From the NCBI GenBank assembly GCA_016840645.1, contig JAEORY010000061.1, positions 1 through 13,338 on the forward strand: 13,338 bases of DNA. Direction: 5' to 3'. Of this stretch, positions 363 through 13,338 are shown piece after piece. How positions within the stretch are numbered: the first letter of the stretch is position 1; every line of letters starts with the position of its first letter. A program made the translations under genes and the position numbers. The notes under the pieces are model-generated. The model saw only the letters and a program-made list of their open reading frames with translations, was not told the origin of the DNA and searched no databases. The DNA comes from Candidatus Borrarchaeota archaeon (GTDB lineage: Archaea > Asgardarchaeota > Sifarchaeia > Borrarchaeales > Borrarchaeaceae).

Positions 363-1517
363 CTAATTATGTTTATCTGCAAGCAAAGCTATCTGATTAA
401 TTATTGCGAAAATTTTTCTACCCTTTTCAGTAATTAAATACTTTCCACGGTTCTTTTCTTGTGTAACTAGTCCTTCATCTTTTAGTTTTCCAATGTGGAA
501 TTGAAGATGACCACCTTTAACTAATATGTTTTCTTCTATTTCAGAAAATTGTAAGGCTTCCTGCCAAAGCATCCTGAGGATCCTTAAACGAACTATGTTG
601 GACAAACTTGATAATATTTTGTGAATCTTTTCTTCTGAGAGTACTATTTCATCGATGTTTATAGACTCTTGTGAAACTAAAAGATGACTTTCAGCTTTTT
701 TCAATTCTTTGTTATTTACTACTCCAACAAACTCTTGAAAGTTTTTGACTTGCTCTGCTAATTCTTGAATCATTTTTCTGTTTTCGTCCATTTTAATTAA
801 CATTAATTTTTGATTTTCATCTTTAGGTCCATCAGGTTGCTTTTTAATTCGAAGCAATTCTTCAAGCAGGTCAACTGATGCAAAAGCGTCTTTCGCGTAT
901 CCATCAGCACCAATTTCGTTAGCATAATTTTTTGAGACTGATGCTCCGCCAATGATAAAAATAACTTTATCCCTAATTCCTGCCTTCTTAAGTTCCTGTA
1001 TTATCTTTTTTTGAGCGCTTCTAGTGCTTGACATAAATGCAGAGGCACCTATAATATTAGCTTTTTCTTCTATTGCCATTTTAACGAATATCTGAGGCGC
1101 TACATTCAAACCGAGATCAATAACTTCAAAATCATTTGCACGAAGCAACGCTGCAACAACATTTTTACCGATATCATGAGTATCACCTTCAACTGTTCCA
1201 AGGAGAACTTTTCCTTTTTTTGTCTGCGTAAAATAAGAGGGTGTGTGCACGGTATTTGTTAAAACATTAAGTGCTTCTTTGAGTGATTCTCCTGCTAAAA
1301 TAACATCTGGTAGTTCACATTCTCCAGTTTCGTACCTATCTGCGACTCTTTTAATGCCTTCAATAAGGACAGTCATAACGGAGTCAAATGGATTTGGGAT
1401 CTTAGAATTTAGTACATCTAATATGTATTTGCCAACAATAACATCGTTGCCATCAATAACTGCTTGTTTCACCTTTTCTAAAAGGTCTTCTTTAAGTTTG
1501 AGAATTGATGCATCCAT
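363..1517 (-). CDS. Corrinoid-binding protein fused to ArsR-like winged helix (putative B12-dependent regulator)
   Basis: Product of 384 aa from the ATG at 1517. Residues 1-95 form the helical cap (B12-binding_2) and about 103-225 the Rossmann B12-binding domain. The base-off/His-on motif is EGDTHDIGKN, with D112, H114 (cobalt ligand) and G117, followed by GASAFMSST and IIGGASV. A charged, probably coiled linker (about 228-290) leads to a winged helix-turn-helix at about 295-375, with SLSNIVRLRIL, GGHLQFHIGKL and a YLITEKGR wing. Methyltransferase corrinoid proteins are about 210-220 aa and lack this tail. The order is the reverse of CarH, where DNA binding is N-terminal. A TTG at 1571 would add 18 residues; ATG 1517 is preferred because the family begins there and a GTGAT precedes it. 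It probably senses corrinoid, methylation or redox state and controls transcription, perhaps of the methyltransferase genes. That role is inferred. Confidence 0.85.
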   Translation of the reverse strand: MDASILKLKEDLLEKVKQAVIDGNDVIVGKYILDVLNSKIPNPFDSVMTVLIEGIKRVADRYETGECELPDVILAGESLKEALNVLTNTVHTPSYFTQTKKGKVLLGTVEGDTHDIGKNVVAALLRANDFEVIDLGLNVAPQIFVKMAIEEKANIIGASAFMSSTRSAQKKIIQELKKAGIRDKVIFIIGGASVSKNYANEIGADGYAKDAFASVDLLEELLRIKKQPDGPKDENQKLMLIKMDENRKMIQELAEQVKNFQEFVGVVNNKELKKAESHLLVSQESINIDEIVLSEEKIHKILSSLSNIVRLRILRMLWQEALQFSEIEENILVKGGHLQFHIGKLKDEGLVTQEKNRGKYLITEKGRKIFAIINQIALLADKHN

Positions 1518-1570: not shown

Positions 1571-1631
1571 ATTTTTTAAATCAATTAGGTAAGGGCAATA
1601 TTGTAAACTAATACTAAAATATTACTCTTTA

Positions 1632-3079: not shown

Positions 3080-3127
3080 ATAATAAAATAGATGTACATA
3101 GATATCTCATATTGGAAGGGAGAAACC

Positions 3128-4069
3128 TTGTTTGGATTTGAAAAGCCTCAAGAAATATTAAGAATCGGTAATGTTGAGCTTGGAGGACAACCAGGAGAAT
3201 TACCGACTGTATTGATCGGAAGTATCTTTTTTTATTTCGACAAGATTGTTGAAAATAAACATCAGGGCATTTTTAAGAAAAATGAAGCAAAGAAGTTAAT
3301 CGATAAAGTAGACATCCTATCTATGACGACAGGAAACCCGTATATAATTGATATAGAGGCTTTTACAAATACTGCAATTGAAAAATATATAGATTTCATT
3401 TCGGAAGTAACAGAGGCACCATTCTTTGTAAATAGCACAAATATCCCAGTCAGACTTCATGGTGCCAATTATGTAAATGAAATTGGTCTCCTCGATAGAG
3501 CAATCTACGCTTCTATAAATTTCACGGCAGATCAAAACGAATTTGATGTGCTAAAGCAGGCAAAAATAGAGAATGTGTTAGTTCAAGCATTTAATCCTAA
3601 AAACCCATTTACTAAAGGAATGATGAAAATGATGAAAGAGGGCCTTGATGGTGAAGGATTGGTAGATAAAGTTATCAGGGTGGGAATAAAAAACCCCCTC
3701 CTTTTTGCAAATGTTTATGATGTGCCAAGTATTGGGGTTGGCTGTGAAACTGTCTATATGTTAAAGAAGGAGTTTGGATTGCCAAGTGGGACAGCCCCAG
3801 TTGGTGTCGTAGGAATCTGGGGAAAGACAGAAAAGGCTAAAGACATTTCTTCAAATATAAGTAGTATTTGTGGAGCAAACGCTGCTGCCTTCGCTAAACT
3901 TAAAGGTTCTGATTTTATCCATTACGGTTCCTTGAAGAGAGCAGATAAGATTTACCCAGCAGTTTCCATGATTGATGCGATAATAGCATATAGAGCACAC
4001 TTATCTGGACTTGAGCCAAAGAATGTAACACCGGCTTTACAAGATTTTTTAGACAATTCGAAAAAATAA
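3128..4069 (+). CDS. MtrH-family methyltransferase, divergent paralogue 1
   Basis: Product of 313 aa with the TIM-barrel MtrH fold. Landmarks are RIGNVELGGQPGELPTVLIG (11-30), the TTGNP turn (67-71), YIDFISEVTEAPF, and a C-terminal DFIHYGSLKRADKIYPAVSM. TTG 3128 is the start: GGAAGGGAG at 3114-3122 sits 5 nt upstream, and the three MtrH homologues then align without gaps over their first 110 residues. ATG 3092 would add 12 unmatched residues. It is the most divergent of the three: the Asp of the (L/V)DS(S/T) motif is N102, YGP is YGS, and the usual HPxYKIF end is replaced by a longer tail. Family members move methyl groups between a corrinoid protein and a tetrahydropterin. It stands alone, away from the corrinoid operon, so its partner is unknown. 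Confidence 0.85.
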   Translation: MFGFEKPQEILRIGNVELGGQPGELPTVLIGSIFFYFDKIVENKHQGIFKKNEAKKLIDKVDILSMTTGNPYIIDIEAFTNTAIEKYIDFISEVTEAPFFVNSTNIPVRLHGANYVNEIGLLDRAIYASINFTADQNEFDVLKQAKIENVLVQAFNPKNPFTKGMMKMMKEGLDGEGLVDKVIRVGIKNPLLFANVYDVPSIGVGCETVYMLKKEFGLPSGTAPVGVVGIWGKTEKAKDISSNISSICGANAAAFAKLKGSDFIHYGSLKRADKIYPAVSMIDAIIAYRAHLSGLEPKNVTPALQDFLDNSKK

Positions 4070-5380: not shown

Positions 5381-7123
5381 CTAAAAAACTGTAAATTTCT
5401 GCTTATGATCTTTAAATTCTGGTAAATGCTCAGCAGACAAAAAGCCAGGTAATTGCATTGCTCTTCCAGAGGCATCAGGAGGGATTTCTTCTTTCTTTTC
5501 CTTTTTTAAATTAAGCATATCATCAATTCTTAAAATCGATATGGCCGTCTCACACGCCCCTTTGAGTATTGCTTTACTAATTCCTAACGGCGTAATAATA
5601 CCTATGTTCATCATGTTGGAAATTTTCCTAGTAAATGCATCATATCCGTACCATATGTTGCTAGATTGTTGATGTTCCATAGTAAGTGAAGGTAAAACAT
5701 CGTAAGGATTTAATCCAGTGTTCCTCACTAATTCCCTTGGAATACATAACATAGCATCCGCAAAAGCTTGAATAGCAAATTGTTCCTTCCCACCAAATCC
5801 TCGTGAAAACATAGTTAGTCGTTTTTTCAATTCAGCCTCTACAGCCCCGCCGCCAGCAACTATCTTATTACACTTGAACAGACTTGCTTTAGCATGAAGT
5901 GCATCAAGTACCGCTCTCTCGGCGTCTTCCATTATTTCTGTTGAAATACCCCTAATTAATATACTCGCTGCTCGCGGGTTTTTACAGCCTTCAAGAATAA
6001 CCATTTTACTATCGCCAAATTCCCTTTCCTCTGCTAAATCGGCATATCCTAAGTCCTTTTCCTCTAACTCTTCAATTCTTGCGAGATTTGCACCACATGC
6101 CCTCGCAACCCTTGTTATATGTTTATCCTTAGCCGCCCATCTGTACAGTGTTATTGTCATAATTCCAGCTCTTGCCAGAAAGTCTCCAATCATCTCATCT
6201 ATACGTTTTTCACAAAAAACAACATTTGCTCCAGCGTTTTTTATCTTATTGACCCATTCCCGCATTAATTGTGGCTTCGCTTCTATGAATGGCTTGATTA
6301 AATCAATATCGTCCATAACAATCTTTCCCCGAACTGTAGGGGGATGATGGTCTAGTTTAGAAAACTCCAAAGGACTTCTAAGTACTGCAATCTTTGCATT
6401 TTTGATTCGCTTTGGCATATTTGGATGAATTCTTCGTTCATCCATAACCATTCCACTGACAGATATTGAATCTTTAATAGCACCGCCTGGTTTTTGGATG
6501 AAGTGAACAAGATTAATATTCGCAATCCAGTTTGTTTCTCTTTTATTTCTGATCTTATCGAAAACATCAAGAGTGATATCTGTTAATATAGAACTAGCCT
6601 TTGTTCCCAATTTAGTGGACAGTGCAGTATAAGCTACGTTTTTGAGCATCTCTTTATCATTATACTCTATTTCTTCTGCAATCTCGTCCAAAATACTAAG
6701 TGTCTTTTTCAATGCCCTATTATATCCCTTAATAATAACTGAAGGATGAATTCTTTCATCTAACAGTTTCTCTGCACGCTCTAGAAGTTCACTTGCTAAT
6801 ACAACAGTCGAAATAGATCCATCTCCCACAACGTCTTTCTGAGTAGTTGCTAATTTAATCAGAATGTTTGCTATGGGATGCCATAAACTCATTTTTTCGA
6901 GCATGGCTGCCCCGTCACCAGAGACCTTATAGTATTTCATACTATCCACAAGAAACTTTTTTGAACCAAAAGGACCCAAGCTTTTCGCAATAATAGTTCT
7001 AATCACTTTTGCTACTGAGATATTACTCTTCACTAACTCTGAGCCCTTTAATTGACTAACTCCTTCTCGAATCGTTGTTGGATAAGTCATCATTGCCGCA
7101 TTTTCGGATGTTATCTGCCTCAC
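5381..7123 (-). CDS. Divergent group II chaperonin (thermosome/Cpn60-like) subunit
   Basis: Product of 580 aa with the full thermosome layout: an equatorial/intermediate N-terminal part with SLGPFGSKKFLVDS (48-61), SGDGAAML (68-75) and VVGDGSIS (98-105), an apical domain in the middle, then LDAL (406-409), GGGAVEAEL (424-432) and a C-terminal equatorial part ending near LRIDDML (531-537). The three catalytic-type Asp residues (D70, D101, D407) remain, but the usual TNDGATIL and GDGTTT are changed. The C-terminus is a charged tail ending in KFTVF instead of a Gly-Gly-Met-rich tail. It is therefore a specialised paralogue rather than the housekeeping thermosome. The start is GTG 7123; ATG 7093 or 7090 is possible. 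It lies 13 nt after a CBS-domain gene, so they are probably co-transcribed. Clients are unknown. Confidence 0.88.
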   Translation of the reverse strand: MRQITSENAAMMTYPTTIREGVSQLKGSELVKSNISVAKVIRTIIAKSLGPFGSKKFLVDSMKYYKVSGDGAAMLEKMSLWHPIANILIKLATTQKDVVGDGSISTVVLASELLERAEKLLDERIHPSVIIKGYNRALKKTLSILDEIAEEIEYNDKEMLKNVAYTALSTKLGTKASSILTDITLDVFDKIRNKRETNWIANINLVHFIQKPGGAIKDSISVSGMVMDERRIHPNMPKRIKNAKIAVLRSPLEFSKLDHHPPTVRGKIVMDDIDLIKPFIEAKPQLMREWVNKIKNAGANVVFCEKRIDEMIGDFLARAGIMTITLYRWAAKDKHITRVARACGANLARIEELEEKDLGYADLAEEREFGDSKMVILEGCKNPRAASILIRGISTEIMEDAERAVLDALHAKASLFKCNKIVAGGGAVEAELKKRLTMFSRGFGGKEQFAIQAFADAMLCIPRELVRNTGLNPYDVLPSLTMEHQQSSNIWYGYDAFTRKISNMMNIGIITPLGISKAILKGACETAISILRIDDMLNLKKEKKEEIPPDASGRAMQLPGFLSAEHLPEFKDHKQKFTVF

Positions 7124-7136
7124 CTATGTTGGGATT

Positions 7137-7583
7137 TTATTCATTCTCTCTTTTCCGTATCGAATGTATACAATCACGAAATTGCTCAAATTGTTTTTTC
7201 GAAATTATACCAATTAATCCACCGTCATCGTCGACTACACCAAGTCTGTTTATCTTGGTCTTAGCAAAATGACTAGCGATATCCCTGACTTTATCGCTTG
7301 AGAATACAGATGATACCGGTGACGCCATAACATCTTTCGCCATAACTTCGCAAGGATTATTTCCTTCCGAAATTAACGCAAACATTGATTCGCTAGTGAC
7401 AATACCAACCGGTTTATTACCTTCTGCAACAAGAATGCTGTCAATCCCGTGATTTATCATTAATTCAGCAACCTTGCATAAGGTTTCTTCAGGGGCGCAT
7501 GTTACCAAATCTATAGCCATATCTACTGCCAATGGCTCAACTTTAACTTCCTTTTCTTCTCCTCTTATATCTTCGAAACTCAT
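7137..7583 (-). CDS. CBS-domain pair protein
   Basis: Product of 148 aa made almost entirely of two CBS motifs, about residues 22-76 (VTCAPEETLCKVAELM to GIVTSESMF) and 85-135 (VMASPVSSVFSSDKVRDIA to GIISKKQFEQF). There is no attached enzymatic or membrane domain. CBS pairs usually bind adenine nucleotides such as AMP, ATP or SAM and act as energy or ligand sensors. ATG 7583 is the start because GGTGA lies 5 nt upstream; the longer frame would begin at TTG 7595. It directly precedes the chaperonin gene with a 13-nt gap, so it may sense nucleotide state for that partner, which is inference. Confidence 0.85.
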   Translation of the reverse strand: MSFEDIRGEEKEVKVEPLAVDMAIDLVTCAPEETLCKVAELMINHGIDSILVAEGNKPVGIVTSESMFALISEGNNPCEVMAKDVMASPVSSVFSSDKVRDIASHFAKTKINRLGVVDDDGGLIGIISKKQFEQFRDCIHSIRKRENE

Positions 7584-7621
7584 TTTTTTCACCAAATTGC
7601 AGATAATTTACTTGATTTAAG

Positions 7622-8957: not shown

Positions 8958-9605
8958 TTATTTTGCACCTACTAGTCTCTTGCACTCAACTACTGCGTCC
9001 GCTGCGTCTCTGCCGAACCCATCTGCATCGTATTGGATTATCATATCACGATACGCGCCAGCACCACCGAGTACGTAATTCACATCAGCCCTAATGCCGG
9101 CATCTCTAAGTGCCTTTTCTATTTGTGGGAATTCAGTATCGGCTGTTGATGTTGAATAGGCAGAGCAACCAAGAACATCTGGCTTGTGTTTCTTTACAGC
9201 TGCGATGAATGCCTCAGGGGATACATCCTGCCCCAAGTCAATGACTTTAAATCCAGCTCCTCTCAGAAATGCTGCGACAAGATTTTTCCCAATATCATGG
9301 ACATCTCCTCGCACAACCCCAATAACTACTGTTCCAAGGTATTTGGCACCTGCTTTTTCCAAATCAGGGAGTACTACAGCCATGGCTTTTTTCGCTGCTT
9401 CAGCGCACATGATTAGGTCTGCAATAAAGTATTCTCTTTTCTCAAGTTTGTCTCCAGCAGCAGTCAAAGCAGTTTTCATCGCTTCTAAAACATCTAATGG
9501 TGAAGCGCCTGCACTCATTGCAGCTTTCGCTAGGTCTCCCGCTTCGTCGTCTTCTCCTTCTATAATAGCACCCTCAAGTCGGGTTAGCTCTACTTTTACG
9601 GTCAT
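8958..9605 (-). CDS. Methyltransferase corrinoid protein
   Basis: Product of 215 aa, the normal length for MtaC/MtbC/MtoC-type corrinoid proteins. The N-terminal helical cap spans about residues 1-88 and the B12-binding domain about 90-215. The cobalt-ligand motif is GDVHDIGKN, with D101, H103 and G106, followed by CSAYSTST and VLGGAGAY. It carries the methyl group between the UroD-fold methyltransferase encoded immediately downstream and an MtrH-type enzyme. The start ATG 9605 has GGAGA about 9 nt upstream. It is first in a two-gene unit and divergent from the MtrH-MtrH-RACo operon, sharing a 411-nt intergenic region. GC content appears higher than in the flanking genes, in keeping with strong expression or codon preference. 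Confidence 0.9.
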   Translation of the reverse strand: MTVKVELTRLEGAIIEGEDDEAGDLAKAAMSAGASPLDVLEAMKTALTAAGDKLEKREYFIADLIMCAEAAKKAMAVVLPDLEKAGAKYLGTVVIGVVRGDVHDIGKNLVAAFLRGAGFKVIDLGQDVSPEAFIAAVKKHKPDVLGCSAYSTSTADTEFPQIEKALRDAGIRADVNYVLGGAGAYRDMIIQYDADGFGRDAADAVVECKRLVGAK

Positions 9606-9683
9606 TTATCTATCTCTCCTTGTTTTGATCCATTCTCCTTAACTTTTTTTTTACGGACCTCTTGTTAAAGAAGCCCATTTCGT

Positions 9684-9699
9684 ATACTAAGCTAAGTAT
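9684..9699. promoter_or_regulatory. Imperfect palindrome near the corrinoid-operon start site
   Basis: ATACTAAGCTAAGTAT reads as ATACT-n-AGCT-n-AGTAT, symmetric at 14 of 16 positions. It lies just downstream of a TATA-like box (CTATTTATAC, minus strand, 9711-9720), where a bound regulator would block initiation. The B12-winged-helix protein is a natural candidate, but nothing in the sequence links them directly. Confidence 0.3.
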
Positions 9700-9969: not shown

Positions 9970-10016
9970 TAAATACTAGAAATGCGCTCATATAAATGTA
10001 TCACGAGGTGCTAGAC

Positions 10017-10943
10017 TTGTTTAAATTCGAAACAGAACAGAAAATCTTTCGTATAGGAAATGTTGAGGTAGGAGGACAGCCGGGAGAGTTACCTACCGTA
10101 TTAATTGGCACTATATTCTATCAGGGTGACAAAATAGTCAAAGATGAAAAAACAGGAAAAATCGACCGAGAGAAGGCAGAAGAATATATCGAAAAACAAT
10201 CAGAGTTGTCGGAAAAAACTGGCAATCCTTGTATGATTGATGTTGTGGGTTTAAGTCCTGAAGCTATGCGTAAGTATATTGACTTTGTAACTAGTCTTAC
10301 AGATGCACCAATATTAGTCGATAGCTCGTTTATGGAGGTAAAAATTGCAGGCATCAAACACGCTGCAGAAGTAGGATTGCTTGATAGAATAGTATATAAT
10401 TCCATTTGGTACATGACACATAAAGAAGAATTAGACGCGATTAAAGAGATAGGTCTTAAGTCCGCGTTAATTTTAGCCTTTAATCCTTCTAATGCATGGC
10501 CTAAAGGCAGACTTAACATGTTATATGGAGACGAATCAAAGGATCAAGAAAGCCTTCTAAAAATAGCTGAGAGAGCAGGAATCGAAAATATTTTGATAGA
10601 TGGGGCCACGTTTGACGTGCCGAGTGTTGGACTAGTAGCCGAAGCGGGTACCCTAATTAAGCAAGAATTTGGCCTACCGGTAGGGGGCGCTCCATGCAAC
10701 GCTGTACTAGAATGGAAACGGGTAAAGGAATTAGGAGGAAAACTAGCAAAGAGGACCTGTATGGCGAGTTCTGTAACAGTTCTACAGAGTGCAGGTGCAG
10801 ATTTCATCCTCTATGGCCCAATAAAAAATGCAGAGATAATCTTTCCTTCTGCGGCAATGACTGATAGTATGATAGCTTATGCAATGCGAAAGCATAAGGT
10901 TAGGACAAGAACACAAGAACATCCTATTTACAAGATCTTCTAA
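10017..10943 (+). CDS. MtrH-family methyltransferase, paralogue 2 (best candidate for the active enzyme)
   Basis: Product of 308 aa, about the usual MtrH length and close to it throughout: FRIGNVEVGGQPGELPTVLI (11-30), TGNPCMID (68-75), ILVDSS with D102, and the C-terminal ADFILYGPIKNAEIIFPSAA followed by HPIYKIF. MtrH-type enzymes transfer methyl between a corrinoid and tetrahydromethanopterin or tetrahydrofolate; they share the pterin-methyltransferase barrel of MetH and AcsE. It is the only one of the three paralogues here that keeps the Asp of the DS(S/T) motif. Start TTG 10017 has GAGGTG (10005-10010) 6 nt upstream; ATG 9996 would add seven residues with no match in the paralogues. It leads an operon with paralogue 3 and RACo, divergent from the corrinoid protein, its likely partner. 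Confidence 0.9.
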   Translation: MFKFETEQKIFRIGNVEVGGQPGELPTVLIGTIFYQGDKIVKDEKTGKIDREKAEEYIEKQSELSEKTGNPCMIDVVGLSPEAMRKYIDFVTSLTDAPILVDSSFMEVKIAGIKHAAEVGLLDRIVYNSIWYMTHKEELDAIKEIGLKSALILAFNPSNAWPKGRLNMLYGDESKDQESLLKIAERAGIENILIDGATFDVPSVGLVAEAGTLIKQEFGLPVGGAPCNAVLEWKRVKELGGKLAKRTCMASSVTVLQSAGADFILYGPIKNAEIIFPSAAMTDSMIAYAMRKHKVRTRTQEHPIYKIF

Positions 10944-10983: not shown

Positions 10984-11053
10984 TGATGTATTGAGGGGAT
11001 AAATAACATTTTACTCTTAATACAAATGTTTCCTTTTTTCGGATGTGAAAAAA

Positions 11054-11971
11054 TTGTTTAAGTTTGAAAAAGAACAGAAAATGTTTCGTGTAGGAAACTT
11101 CCAAGTTGGAGGACAGCCGGGAGAGTTACCTACCGTATTAATTGGCACTATATTCTATCAGGATGACAAAATTGTTGAAAACGAGAAAACTGGAGAATTT
11201 GACAAACAAAAAGCGGAAGAATTCATTGCAAAACAATCTGAGCTATCGGAAAAAACTGGCAATCCTTGTATGATTGATGTTGTAGGCTTTAGTCCCGAAG
11301 CTATTTGTAGGTATATTGACTTTGTTGCCAATCTTACAGATGCACCGATATTAGTTTATAGCCCAAGTACAGATGTAAAAATCTCAGCTATCCAGCATTC
11401 AGCAGAGGTGGGAATAAGTAACAGAATTATTTATAACCATATTGCATATTTTACTAAAGAGGAAGAGGTGACATCACTAAGAGAGGCCGAGATAAAGTCT
11501 GCTGTAATCTTGGCTTTTAATCTCTCAAATCCCAGGTCAACAGGACGAATTGAAATACTTAATGGAACATCAACTCAGGAAAGCCTATTACAACTTGCTG
11601 AACGATCGGGGGTCGAAAACATCCTTGTAGATGGAGCTCCTTGCGATATACCTGGTGTTGGTATGGCAGCAAAGGCAATTCATTTAATTAAAGATAATTT
11701 TGGACTACCGGCTGGAGGAACACCTTATAGACAACTTCTACAATGGACACGACTGAAAGAGTACGGTGTTGTTGCAAAGAAAACATGTATGGCAAGTTGC
11801 TTGACGGTTCTACAACATGCAGGCGCTGATTTCCTCTTATATGGTCCAATAAAAAATGCAGAAATAACATTTCCTGCTGTAGCAATGACTGACGCAATAA
11901 TTGCATATGCAATGCGAGAAGAAGGCATAAAAACCAAAACCAAGAACCACCCTCTTTACAAAATATTCTGA
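11054..11971 (+). CDS. MtrH-family methyltransferase, paralogue 3
   Basis: Product of 305 aa, colinear with paralogue 2 from the first residue: MFKFEKEQKMFRVGN, GGQPGELPTVLIGTIFYQ, SEKTGNPCMIDVVG, YGPIKNAEITFPAVAMTD and HPLYKIF. The Asp of the DS(S/T) motif is Y102 (TAT at 11357-11359), which should alter pterin or methyl handling. It may therefore act on another carrier or serve as a non-catalytic partner of paralogue 2. GTG 11045 is three codons longer; TTG 11054 is preferred because GGATGTGA (11041-11048) then acts as the ribosome-binding site and the start matches the other two. Two stretches near the 5' end are identical at DNA level to paralogue 2, unlike the rest of the gene. RACo follows after 29 nt. 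Confidence 0.88.
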   Translation: MFKFEKEQKMFRVGNFQVGGQPGELPTVLIGTIFYQDDKIVENEKTGEFDKQKAEEFIAKQSELSEKTGNPCMIDVVGFSPEAICRYIDFVANLTDAPILVYSPSTDVKISAIQHSAEVGISNRIIYNHIAYFTKEEEVTSLREAEIKSAVILAFNLSNPRSTGRIEILNGTSTQESLLQLAERSGVENILVDGAPCDIPGVGMAAKAIHLIKDNFGLPAGGTPYRQLLQWTRLKEYGVVAKKTCMASCLTVLQHAGADFLLYGPIKNAEITFPAVAMTDAIIAYAMREEGIKTKTKNHPLYKIF

Positions 11972-12000: not shown

Positions 12001-13338
12001 ATGAATCAAATAGAAATAACATTTCAACCTGACGGAAAACGAGTCGCTATCGATTCTGGCGAAACATTAATGGACGGTGCAAAGAGGGGAGGCATAGATA
12101 TTCAAGCTATATGTGGAGGAAATGCTATATGCGGGAAATGTAAAGTTATAATCAATCCTGAACAAGTTTTAATCAACCCAATCACTGATGATGAAAAAAG
12201 ACTTCTTACCCCGTTAGAAATTCAAAAAGGTTACCGATTGGCATGTTCTGTAATTCCAACAGGAAATATTAATGTGGAAATACCGCTCTCAAGCAGAATT
12301 GGAAAACAGAGGCTTCAAGTTGAAGGTATTGAAGTTCTAGTGGAATTTGATCCTCATATACAGAAATTAGGATTACAGATAGCCCCACCTTCTCTTCATG
12401 ATCTTAGATCTGACGGAGAGCGAATTTTGGATGAAGTTCATAAGGTTCTTAATAATGAAGTTATATTGGATTATAACGTTCTTAATCGAATTCCTCGAAT
12501 TTTAAGGAATGGAAATTGGGTAGTGACTGTAACAATTTGGAATTATCAAAAAATAATAGAAATAGAGCCTGGCATGACATTCGAGAAGAATTATTGTGTG
12601 GCACTAGATATTGGAACTACAAAAATTGCGGCCTATTTGATAAATCTTTACGATGGAAACTTAGTAGCGAGTGATTCAATGATGAATCCCCAAATCCCTT
12701 ATGGAGAAGATGTTATTTCAAGAATCACTCTTACTGAAGAACCTAATTTACTTTCTGACCTTGTTGTGAGTGGGATAAATAAACTTATAAAATCGCTTTG
12801 TGAAAAAACTGATGTAAAACTAAATTGGATTTATGAGGTAAGCGTTGTTGGGAATACCGCTATGCATCATATATTTTTGCGAGTTCCTTCTGAATATTTA
12901 GCAGTATCACCATACGTACCAGTGATAAGAACACCTCTGAATATTCCCGCCGAAAAATTAGGGCTTGATATATTCCCTTATGGAAATGTTTATGTCTTTC
13001 CTATAATTGCAGGCTTTGTGGGGGGCGATAAAGTCGCGGAAATATTAGCCACAGAAATATACAAATCCGATGAGATTTGTTTAACGTTAGATATAGGTAC
13101 TAACACAGAAATCGCTCTAGGAAACAAAGATGATATTCTTACATGTTCTTGTGCGTCAGGACCCGCTTTTGAGGGAGCCTATATTAAGCATGGAATGCGT
13201 GCAGCGACTGGAGCAATTGAACGTATTAAAATCGACCCTGAAACTTTTGAAGTTACGTATAAAACGATAGAGGATGAGAAACCGAGGGGTATTTGCGGCT
13301 CAGCGATCGTCGATGCGCTTTCAGAGATGTTTAAAGCT
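12001..13338 (+). CDS. RACo-type reductive activator of corrinoid proteins (partial, runs off the right edge)
   Basis: The frame is open for 446 codons to the window end; the family is usually about 600-640 aa, so the last quarter is missing. The N-terminus is a [2Fe-2S] ferredoxin domain with C38-x5-C44-x2-C47 (CGGNAICGKC) and C82 (RLACS). A linker and middle domain follow, then an ASKHA ATPase-type domain with VALDIGTTKIA (200-210), VVGNTAMHH (282-290), FVGGDKV (339-345), LTLDIGTNTEIAL (361-373) and CSCASGPAFEGA (382-393). RACo proteins use ATP and a low-potential electron to reduce cob(II)alamin to cob(I)alamin. ATG 12001 has GGAG 9 nt upstream (11988-11991). As the last visible gene of the MtrH operon, it most likely serves the corrinoid protein encoded across the divergent promoter. 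Confidence 0.93.
   Translation, partial: MNQIEITFQPDGKRVAIDSGETLMDGAKRGGIDIQAICGGNAICGKCKVIINPEQVLINPITDDEKRLLTPLEIQKGYRLACSVIPTGNINVEIPLSSRIGKQRLQVEGIEVLVEFDPHIQKLGLQIAPPSLHDLRSDGERILDEVHKVLNNEVILDYNVLNRIPRILRNGNWVVTVTIWNYQKIIEIEPGMTFEKNYCVALDIGTTKIAAYLINLYDGNLVASDSMMNPQIPYGEDVISRITLTEEPNLLSDLVVSGINKLIKSLCEKTDVKLNWIYEVSVVGNTAMHHIFLRVPSEYLAVSPYVPVIRTPLNIPAEKLGLDIFPYGNVYVFPIIAGFVGGDKVAEILATEIYKSDEICLTLDIGTNTEIALGNKDDILTCSCASGPAFEGAYIKHGMRAATGAIERIKIDPETFEVTYKTIEDEKPRGICGSAIVDALSEMFKA

Follow-up and report, generated by a model that had tools for sequence, protein, structure and literature searches.

The 13,338-nucleotide contig JAEORY010000061.1 of a Candidatus Borrarchaeota archaeon (hereafter, the window) encodes a protein in which a methyltransferase-type corrinoid module is followed by a linker and a C-terminal winged helix. 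Judging from its domains and its gene neighbourhood, this fusion protein is probably a corrinoid-bound transcription factor of the neighbouring methyl-transfer genes. More tentatively, the UroD- and MtrH-type enzymes encoded nearby might methylate and demethylate the protein's own corrinoid, with RACo re-reducing it, such that the winged helix would read methyl-transfer flux, an arrangement independent of CarH and of AraC- and CRP-corrinoid fusions. The architecture, the fold match, the conservation, the selection and the gene linkage were observed directly. An earlier interpretation of the same DNA from its letters alone (the sequence-only reading) had likewise proposed a B12-sensing regulator, and it is upheld in part: the domains, fold, module type and gene link stand, whereas the proposed operators do not.

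Domain architecture of the fusion protein

The gene and its predicted parts, all on the minus strand, are as follows.

363..1517, minus: corrinoid-winged-helix fusion protein, 384 amino acids plus stop; nine other full-length relatives
1260..1484, minus (residues 12-86): helical cap, Pfam B12-binding_2 (48.2 bits, cutoff 23)
873..1214, minus (residues 102-215): Rossmann-like corrinoid-binding domain, Pfam B12-binding (90.7 bits, cutoff 32.1)
1167..1184, minus: DxHxxG motif D112-T-H114-D-I-G117, the His lower-ligand motif
642..842, minus (residues 226-292): linker; predicted helix at 234-267, partly of low confidence, then a low-confidence stretch
366..641, minus (residues 293-384): ArsR/HxlR/MarR-like winged helix and C-terminal helix

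The TTG-initiated frame of the gene extends up to position 1571, and the start MDxxIL is common to all ten full-length members. The sequence-only reading had described a cap and B12-binding domain with D112, H114 and G117; both Pfam families exceed their cutoffs, and the three residues are identical in all 108 corrinoid homologues that lack a winged helix (P0013-P0120, from a set comprising the best 120 of 284 matches). S159 is kept in 107 of these homologues, and G190 and G191 in all 108. In the cap, the fusion protein carries Y62 (F in 86 and Y in 18 of the homologues) and L69 (L in 67, V in 34), which, in an alignment by eye, fall at F708 and L715 of the methyl cap in MetH. The module departs from the homologues at F161, where 105 of the 108 have L, and at R166, where 101 of the 108 have M. 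With B12-binding_2 and B12-binding above their gathering scores and the DxHxxG motif present, the module is of the methyltransferase type, as had been proposed, and it is closer to methyltransferase corrinoid proteins, which are also its best structural matches, than to CarH.

The winged helix matches the Pfam family DUF7347 at residues 302-373 with 34.0 bits against a cutoff of 27.6, whereas matches to HTH_45, HTH_34 and HTH_5 all fall under their own cutoffs. In all ten fusion members, DUF7347 and both B12 families are matched with E <= 0.001. Because structure searches with the whole model cover mainly residues 8-230, the winged helix was modelled and searched alone; the predicted fold resembles YodB, RosR, BigR and HlyU, in agreement with the ArsR-like assignment made from the sequence. 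The Pfam positions also bear out the order, corrinoid module first and helix-turn-helix (HTH) last, opposite to that of CarH. The winged helix contains no cysteine in any of the ten members, and there is none after residue 67; the sole cysteine of the members is C67 in the corrinoid cap, which P0007 lacks. Within the linker, the second half of the predicted helix lies in a stretch (residues 249-292) with a predicted local distance difference test (pLDDT) score <50.

Comparison of the window with the loci in Candidatus Borrarchaeum yapensis (L001) and C. B. weybense (L002) gave ratios of nonsynonymous to synonymous substitution rates (dN/dS) that span 0.08-0.18 in the corrinoid module and 0.20-0.26 in the winged helix, and that rise to 0.53-0.79 in the linker. 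Purifying selection acts on both domains, and the linker is the looser joint. An assembly artefact is ruled out by the same junction in the window protein and nine others, and a plain corrinoid protein with a chance extension by a winged helix that scores above cutoff, is conserved and is under selection. The succession of corrinoid module, linker and C-terminal winged helix is confirmed by these domain predictions.

Distribution and relatives

The nine further full-length fusions are 69-92% identical to the window protein. With residues 226-384 as query, only the ten fused proteins were found among 347 candidates (from ~5.8 billion proteins). The genome scan yielded, among the matches listed, two loci, those of Ca. 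B. yapensis (88% identity) and C. B. weybense (69%); the taxonomy of both genomes is phylum Borrarchaeota, kingdom Promethearchaeati, the Asgard archaea. Across the phylum, where up to eight candidates were scored per genome, some match is present in 224 of 227 genomes; among the matches listed, full-length ones are found only in the two Borrarchaeum genomes (G001 and G002), which also are the only ones to match beyond residue 306.

Seven of the ten fused proteins entered a tree of 51 corrinoid modules, as did every fifth of the other 108 proteins listed (22 in all). The seven group with the protein P0011 (100/100), which in the best tree is placed just outside them, weakly (73/91); the next nearest relative is corr3 of the same gene cluster (94/90, on a long branch). 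By eye, F at position 161 recurs in corr3 and P0011. The tree row as_L016 is identical to the fused P0010 and represents the fusion gene, not corr2. No strong candidate for the donor of the winged helix emerges from the two Borrarchaeum genomes, whose remaining matches to it are weak (best E 5.8e-4).

Gene neighbourhood

Judged by its predicted products, the locus is a one-carbon methyl-transfer neighbourhood. The window contains the following genes around the fusion gene.

3092..4069, plus: mtrH3, MtrH-family methyltransferase
9996..10943, plus: mtrH1, MtrH-family methyltransferase
11045..11971, plus: mtrH2, MtrH-family methyltransferase
12001..13338, plus: RACo-type corrinoid reductive activator, truncated at the end of the window
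8958..9605, minus: corr2, corrinoid protein without a winged helix
7680..8948, minus: URO-D superfamily protein, methyltransferase candidate
5381-7123 and 7137-7595: thermosome-type chaperonin / CBS-domain protein after the corr2-UroD genes, conserved in L001 and L002
1950-2339 and 2550-2891: two small proteins, related to each other and bearing CxxC pairs; both kept in L001 and L002

An MFS transporter also is encoded in the window. The context of relatives was read at the two loci L001 and L002. L001 shows the gene order of the window apart from the MFS gene, which lacks a counterpart there; L002 has a rearranged cluster in which the fusion gene and the corr2-UroD genes are divergently oriented. 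The fusion gene lies beside the MtrH/UroD/corrinoid cluster in both named Borrarchaeum genomes too, and the link to MtrH/UroD-type methyltransferase genes suspected from the window sequence is thus also present in two relatives. The mtrH1-mtrH2-RACo run of G001 goes on with genes for a second URO-D protein, for corr3, for an ECF-type ATPase and for a CbiQ-family protein; the cluster includes two corrinoid proteins without a winged helix, corr2 and corr3, and the corr3 gene adjoins a URO-D gene. The ECF-type ATPase and CbiQ-family genes (L034:6364-8501) might serve uptake of corrinoid, cobalt or a methyl substrate. On the far side of the fusion gene, L001 encodes a DUF1638 protein, methylene-H4MPT dehydrogenase, a flavin oxidoreductase, a second RACo and a protein that matches the methionine-synthase activation domain over a short stretch.

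The fusion gene is flanked by a 210-nt direct repeat (101-310 and 1649-1858, 90% identical). As a query, it is matched 50 times in G001 and 53 times in G002, in part by fragments; it has no Rfam match at gathering score and no excess folding, and is probably a small mobile element family. It may resemble IS605-type ends. Near the small CxxC proteins, a 132-nt repeat (2188-2319 / 2393-2524) suggests a third, decayed copy.

Candidate DNA sites

The window has three exact copies of the 11-mer AGTAATATTTT where 0.04 would be expected, and every copy precedes a gene on that gene's coding strand.

1616..1626, minus: AGTAATATTTT upstream of the fusion gene, weak candidate operator; no exact copy at the fusion gene in L001 or L002
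3066..3076, plus: AGTAATATTTT upstream of mtrH3, weak candidate operator; exact in L001, absent in L002
9956..9966, plus: AGTAATATTTT upstream of mtrH1, weak candidate operator; exact in L001 and L002

Among nine 150-base upstream regions, a shared word of at least 11 bases in three regions arose in 6 of 2000 dinucleotide shuffles. A 14-mer form is found in three copies in G001 and in none in the reversed control; two of the copies are at promoters named above, and the third (C95:21731) lies within an open reading frame (ORF), on the opposite strand.

The operators of the sequence-only reading were two dyads, and neither is conserved: that at 1551-1570 is not kept in L001, and that at 9684-9699 is imperfect (14/16) and not kept in L002 (alignments judged by eye). 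An inverted repeat in the corr2 leader (9655-9676) is kept in the window, L001 and L002, but was seen only at corr2 and is not used as evidence. It folds as an RNA hairpin in the three species (z -3.99, -3.65 and -2.61), with most asymmetries being G-U pairs (by eye), so that an operator and a leader hairpin are equally likely.

Proposed function and alternatives

In the mechanism that we propose, the N-terminal module would bind corrinoid base-off with H114 as the lower ligand, as the intact motif suggests; the linker, whose predicted helix may also be a dimerisation helix, would join the module to the winged helix, which from its fold would bind DNA. The targets would most likely be the fusion gene itself, mtrH3, and mtrH1-mtrH2-RACo with the downstream genes, and the output might be repression or activation. 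By their expected roles, UroD-type enzymes would methylate, MtrH-type enzymes would demethylate and RACo would re-reduce corrinoid proteins. The signal would most likely be the upper-ligand or oxidation state of the cofactor that the protein carries: methylated under a good supply of methyl substrate, and otherwise unmethylated or oxidised. We favour the methylation or oxidation state because a module of the methyl-carrier type is encoded among the enzymes expected to methylate, demethylate and reduce it. To our knowledge, archaeal sensing of one-carbon methyl substrates is poorly known, and a regulator sharing the cofactor of the pathway carriers could gauge flux directly. If true, this would be a methyl-state sensor in an Asgard archaeon, with the flux written on the regulator itself.

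Several observations weigh against this proposal. P0011, of 228 amino acids, found on contigs of up to 11783 bases and 78% identical to the corrinoid module, ends without linker or winged helix; it may never have been fused, may have lost the rest or may come from a broken gene. The 11-mer was picked post hoc, is exact at the fusion gene in the window only, at mtrH3 in two of three species and at mtrH1 in all three, and its other exact copy in L002 falls within the chaperonin ORF. With one mismatch allowed, three window matches stand against 1.25 expected, a count reached by 22 of 200 shuffles. The 12-mer form AGTAATATTTTT shows no genome-wide enrichment (7 matches versus 8 control matches in G001, 7 versus 5 in G002), and the 14-mer form is absent from G002. 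AGTAATATTTT is a lead and a weak candidate site, not an operator. Moreover, the evidence assembled here fits methylation sensing and corrinoid-supply sensing alike.

A supply sensor would distinguish the apo from the holo form and repress or activate the methyl-transfer genes, and perhaps those for corrinoid or cobalt uptake. The ECF-type ATPase and CbiQ-family transport protein after the mtrH1 run in G001 are consistent with such a role, as is CarH, which binds DNA as an AdoCbl-bound tetramer (AdoCbl, adenosylcobalamin; PMC10979010). However, the cap retains the pattern of methyl carriers, to which the module as a whole is closest, and the transporter may carry something else; we regard supply sensing, the main rival, as rather unlikely. 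It is also conceivable, if quite improbable, that the protein is mainly a working methyl-carrier, with the winged helix tethering it to DNA or a partner without regulation by corrinoid state. The retention of the carrier residues, the close kinship of P0011, which has no winged helix, and the position of corr3, the nearest other relative in the tree and encoded beside a URO-D protein, would suit such a carrier, whereas the G001 cluster already encodes corr2 and corr3, and purifying selection acts on the winged helix.

A light sensor that uses AdoCbl as CarH does, but with an exchanged DNA-binding domain, would explain the same two B12 subdomains, some similarity to the CarH model (NCBIfam TransRegCarH) and a fold match to 5c8d, but the score of 31.8 bits is far under the 400-bit cutoff, and we consider this reading extremely improbable. 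Wx9EH, reported as absolutely conserved in all studied CarH homologues (PMC8156234), is absent from all ten members, and for this reason a CarH-type photoreceptor is ruled out.

Comparison with known systems

The fusion protein resembles CarH/LitR in being a putative transcription factor built of HTH, cap and Rossmann B12 domains with a His-on motif. CarH has a MerR-type HTH at the front and contains Wx9EH, whereas the fusion protein ends with an ArsR/HxlR-like winged helix and lacks Wx9EH; among the domain matches of the fusion members there is no MerR-family match, and HTH matches are only C-terminal. In CarH, the B12 domain is C-terminal, and the motif is given as ExHx2Gx41SxV/Tx22-27GG (both from PMC8156234); by this comparison, D112xH114x2G117x41S159 fits the MetH form, position 161 is F instead of V/T, and 28 rather than 22-27 residues precede GG. 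With MttC, MtbC, MtgC and MtaC the protein shares the cap and B12 domain and the ligand residues, and methyltransferase corrinoid proteins of this group are its best structural matches. It differs from them by the added linker and winged helix and scores under each curated family cutoff, including TIGR02370 (methyltransferase cognate corrinoid protein; 157.8 bits versus 215.3).

The predicted fold of the DNA-binding domain is that of ArsR/SmtB, HxlR and archaeal RosR, with scores below the ArsR cutoffs (HTH_5, 18.6 bits versus 22; NF033788, 28.1 versus 55). Metal-binding cysteines are typical of, although not universal in, the ArsR/SmtB winged helix; that of the fusion protein has none, and the putative sensor is the fused corrinoid domain. 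The cluster logic of MTI (methyltransferase I), corrinoid protein and MTII (methyltransferase II) recalls Mto, with its MtrH-like methyltransferase and activase (PMC8630106), and Cdm, with its UroD-superfamily MTI and Asgard CdmB relatives (PMC13222342), and no corrinoid-HTH fusion was met in the accessible portions of these two descriptions. Nor did we find a published corrinoid-winged-helix or AraC/CRP-corrinoid fusion in titles and abstracts of the largely open literature, which is no proof of absence.

The general idea of such a fusion is not unique, since a length-shifted search found 31 AraC-type and three CRP-type corrinoid fusions (best 120 of 381 proteins; Pfam domains counted by eye), which by their HTH type are probably bacterial. 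They share with the window protein a methyltransferase-type corrinoid module and a DNA-binding domain, but in all six that were scanned (P0136, P0144, P0179, P0189, P0200 and P0202) the AraC or CRP HTH comes first, whereas the winged helix of the window protein comes last. In 33 of the 34, 111-126 residues separate the corrinoid motif from the C-terminus, P0171 having no pattern match. The HTH-last order has a precedent, because HTH and other output domains are reported at both ends of light-responsive cobalamin domains (PMC11796333). The archaeal fusions, with their ArsR/HxlR-like HTH last, seem to have arisen separately, and the AraC and CRP fusions suggest, from domain content rather than a tree, that a methyl-carrier module and a DNA-binding domain have been joined more than once. 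Other organisms could accordingly serve to test the sensing idea.
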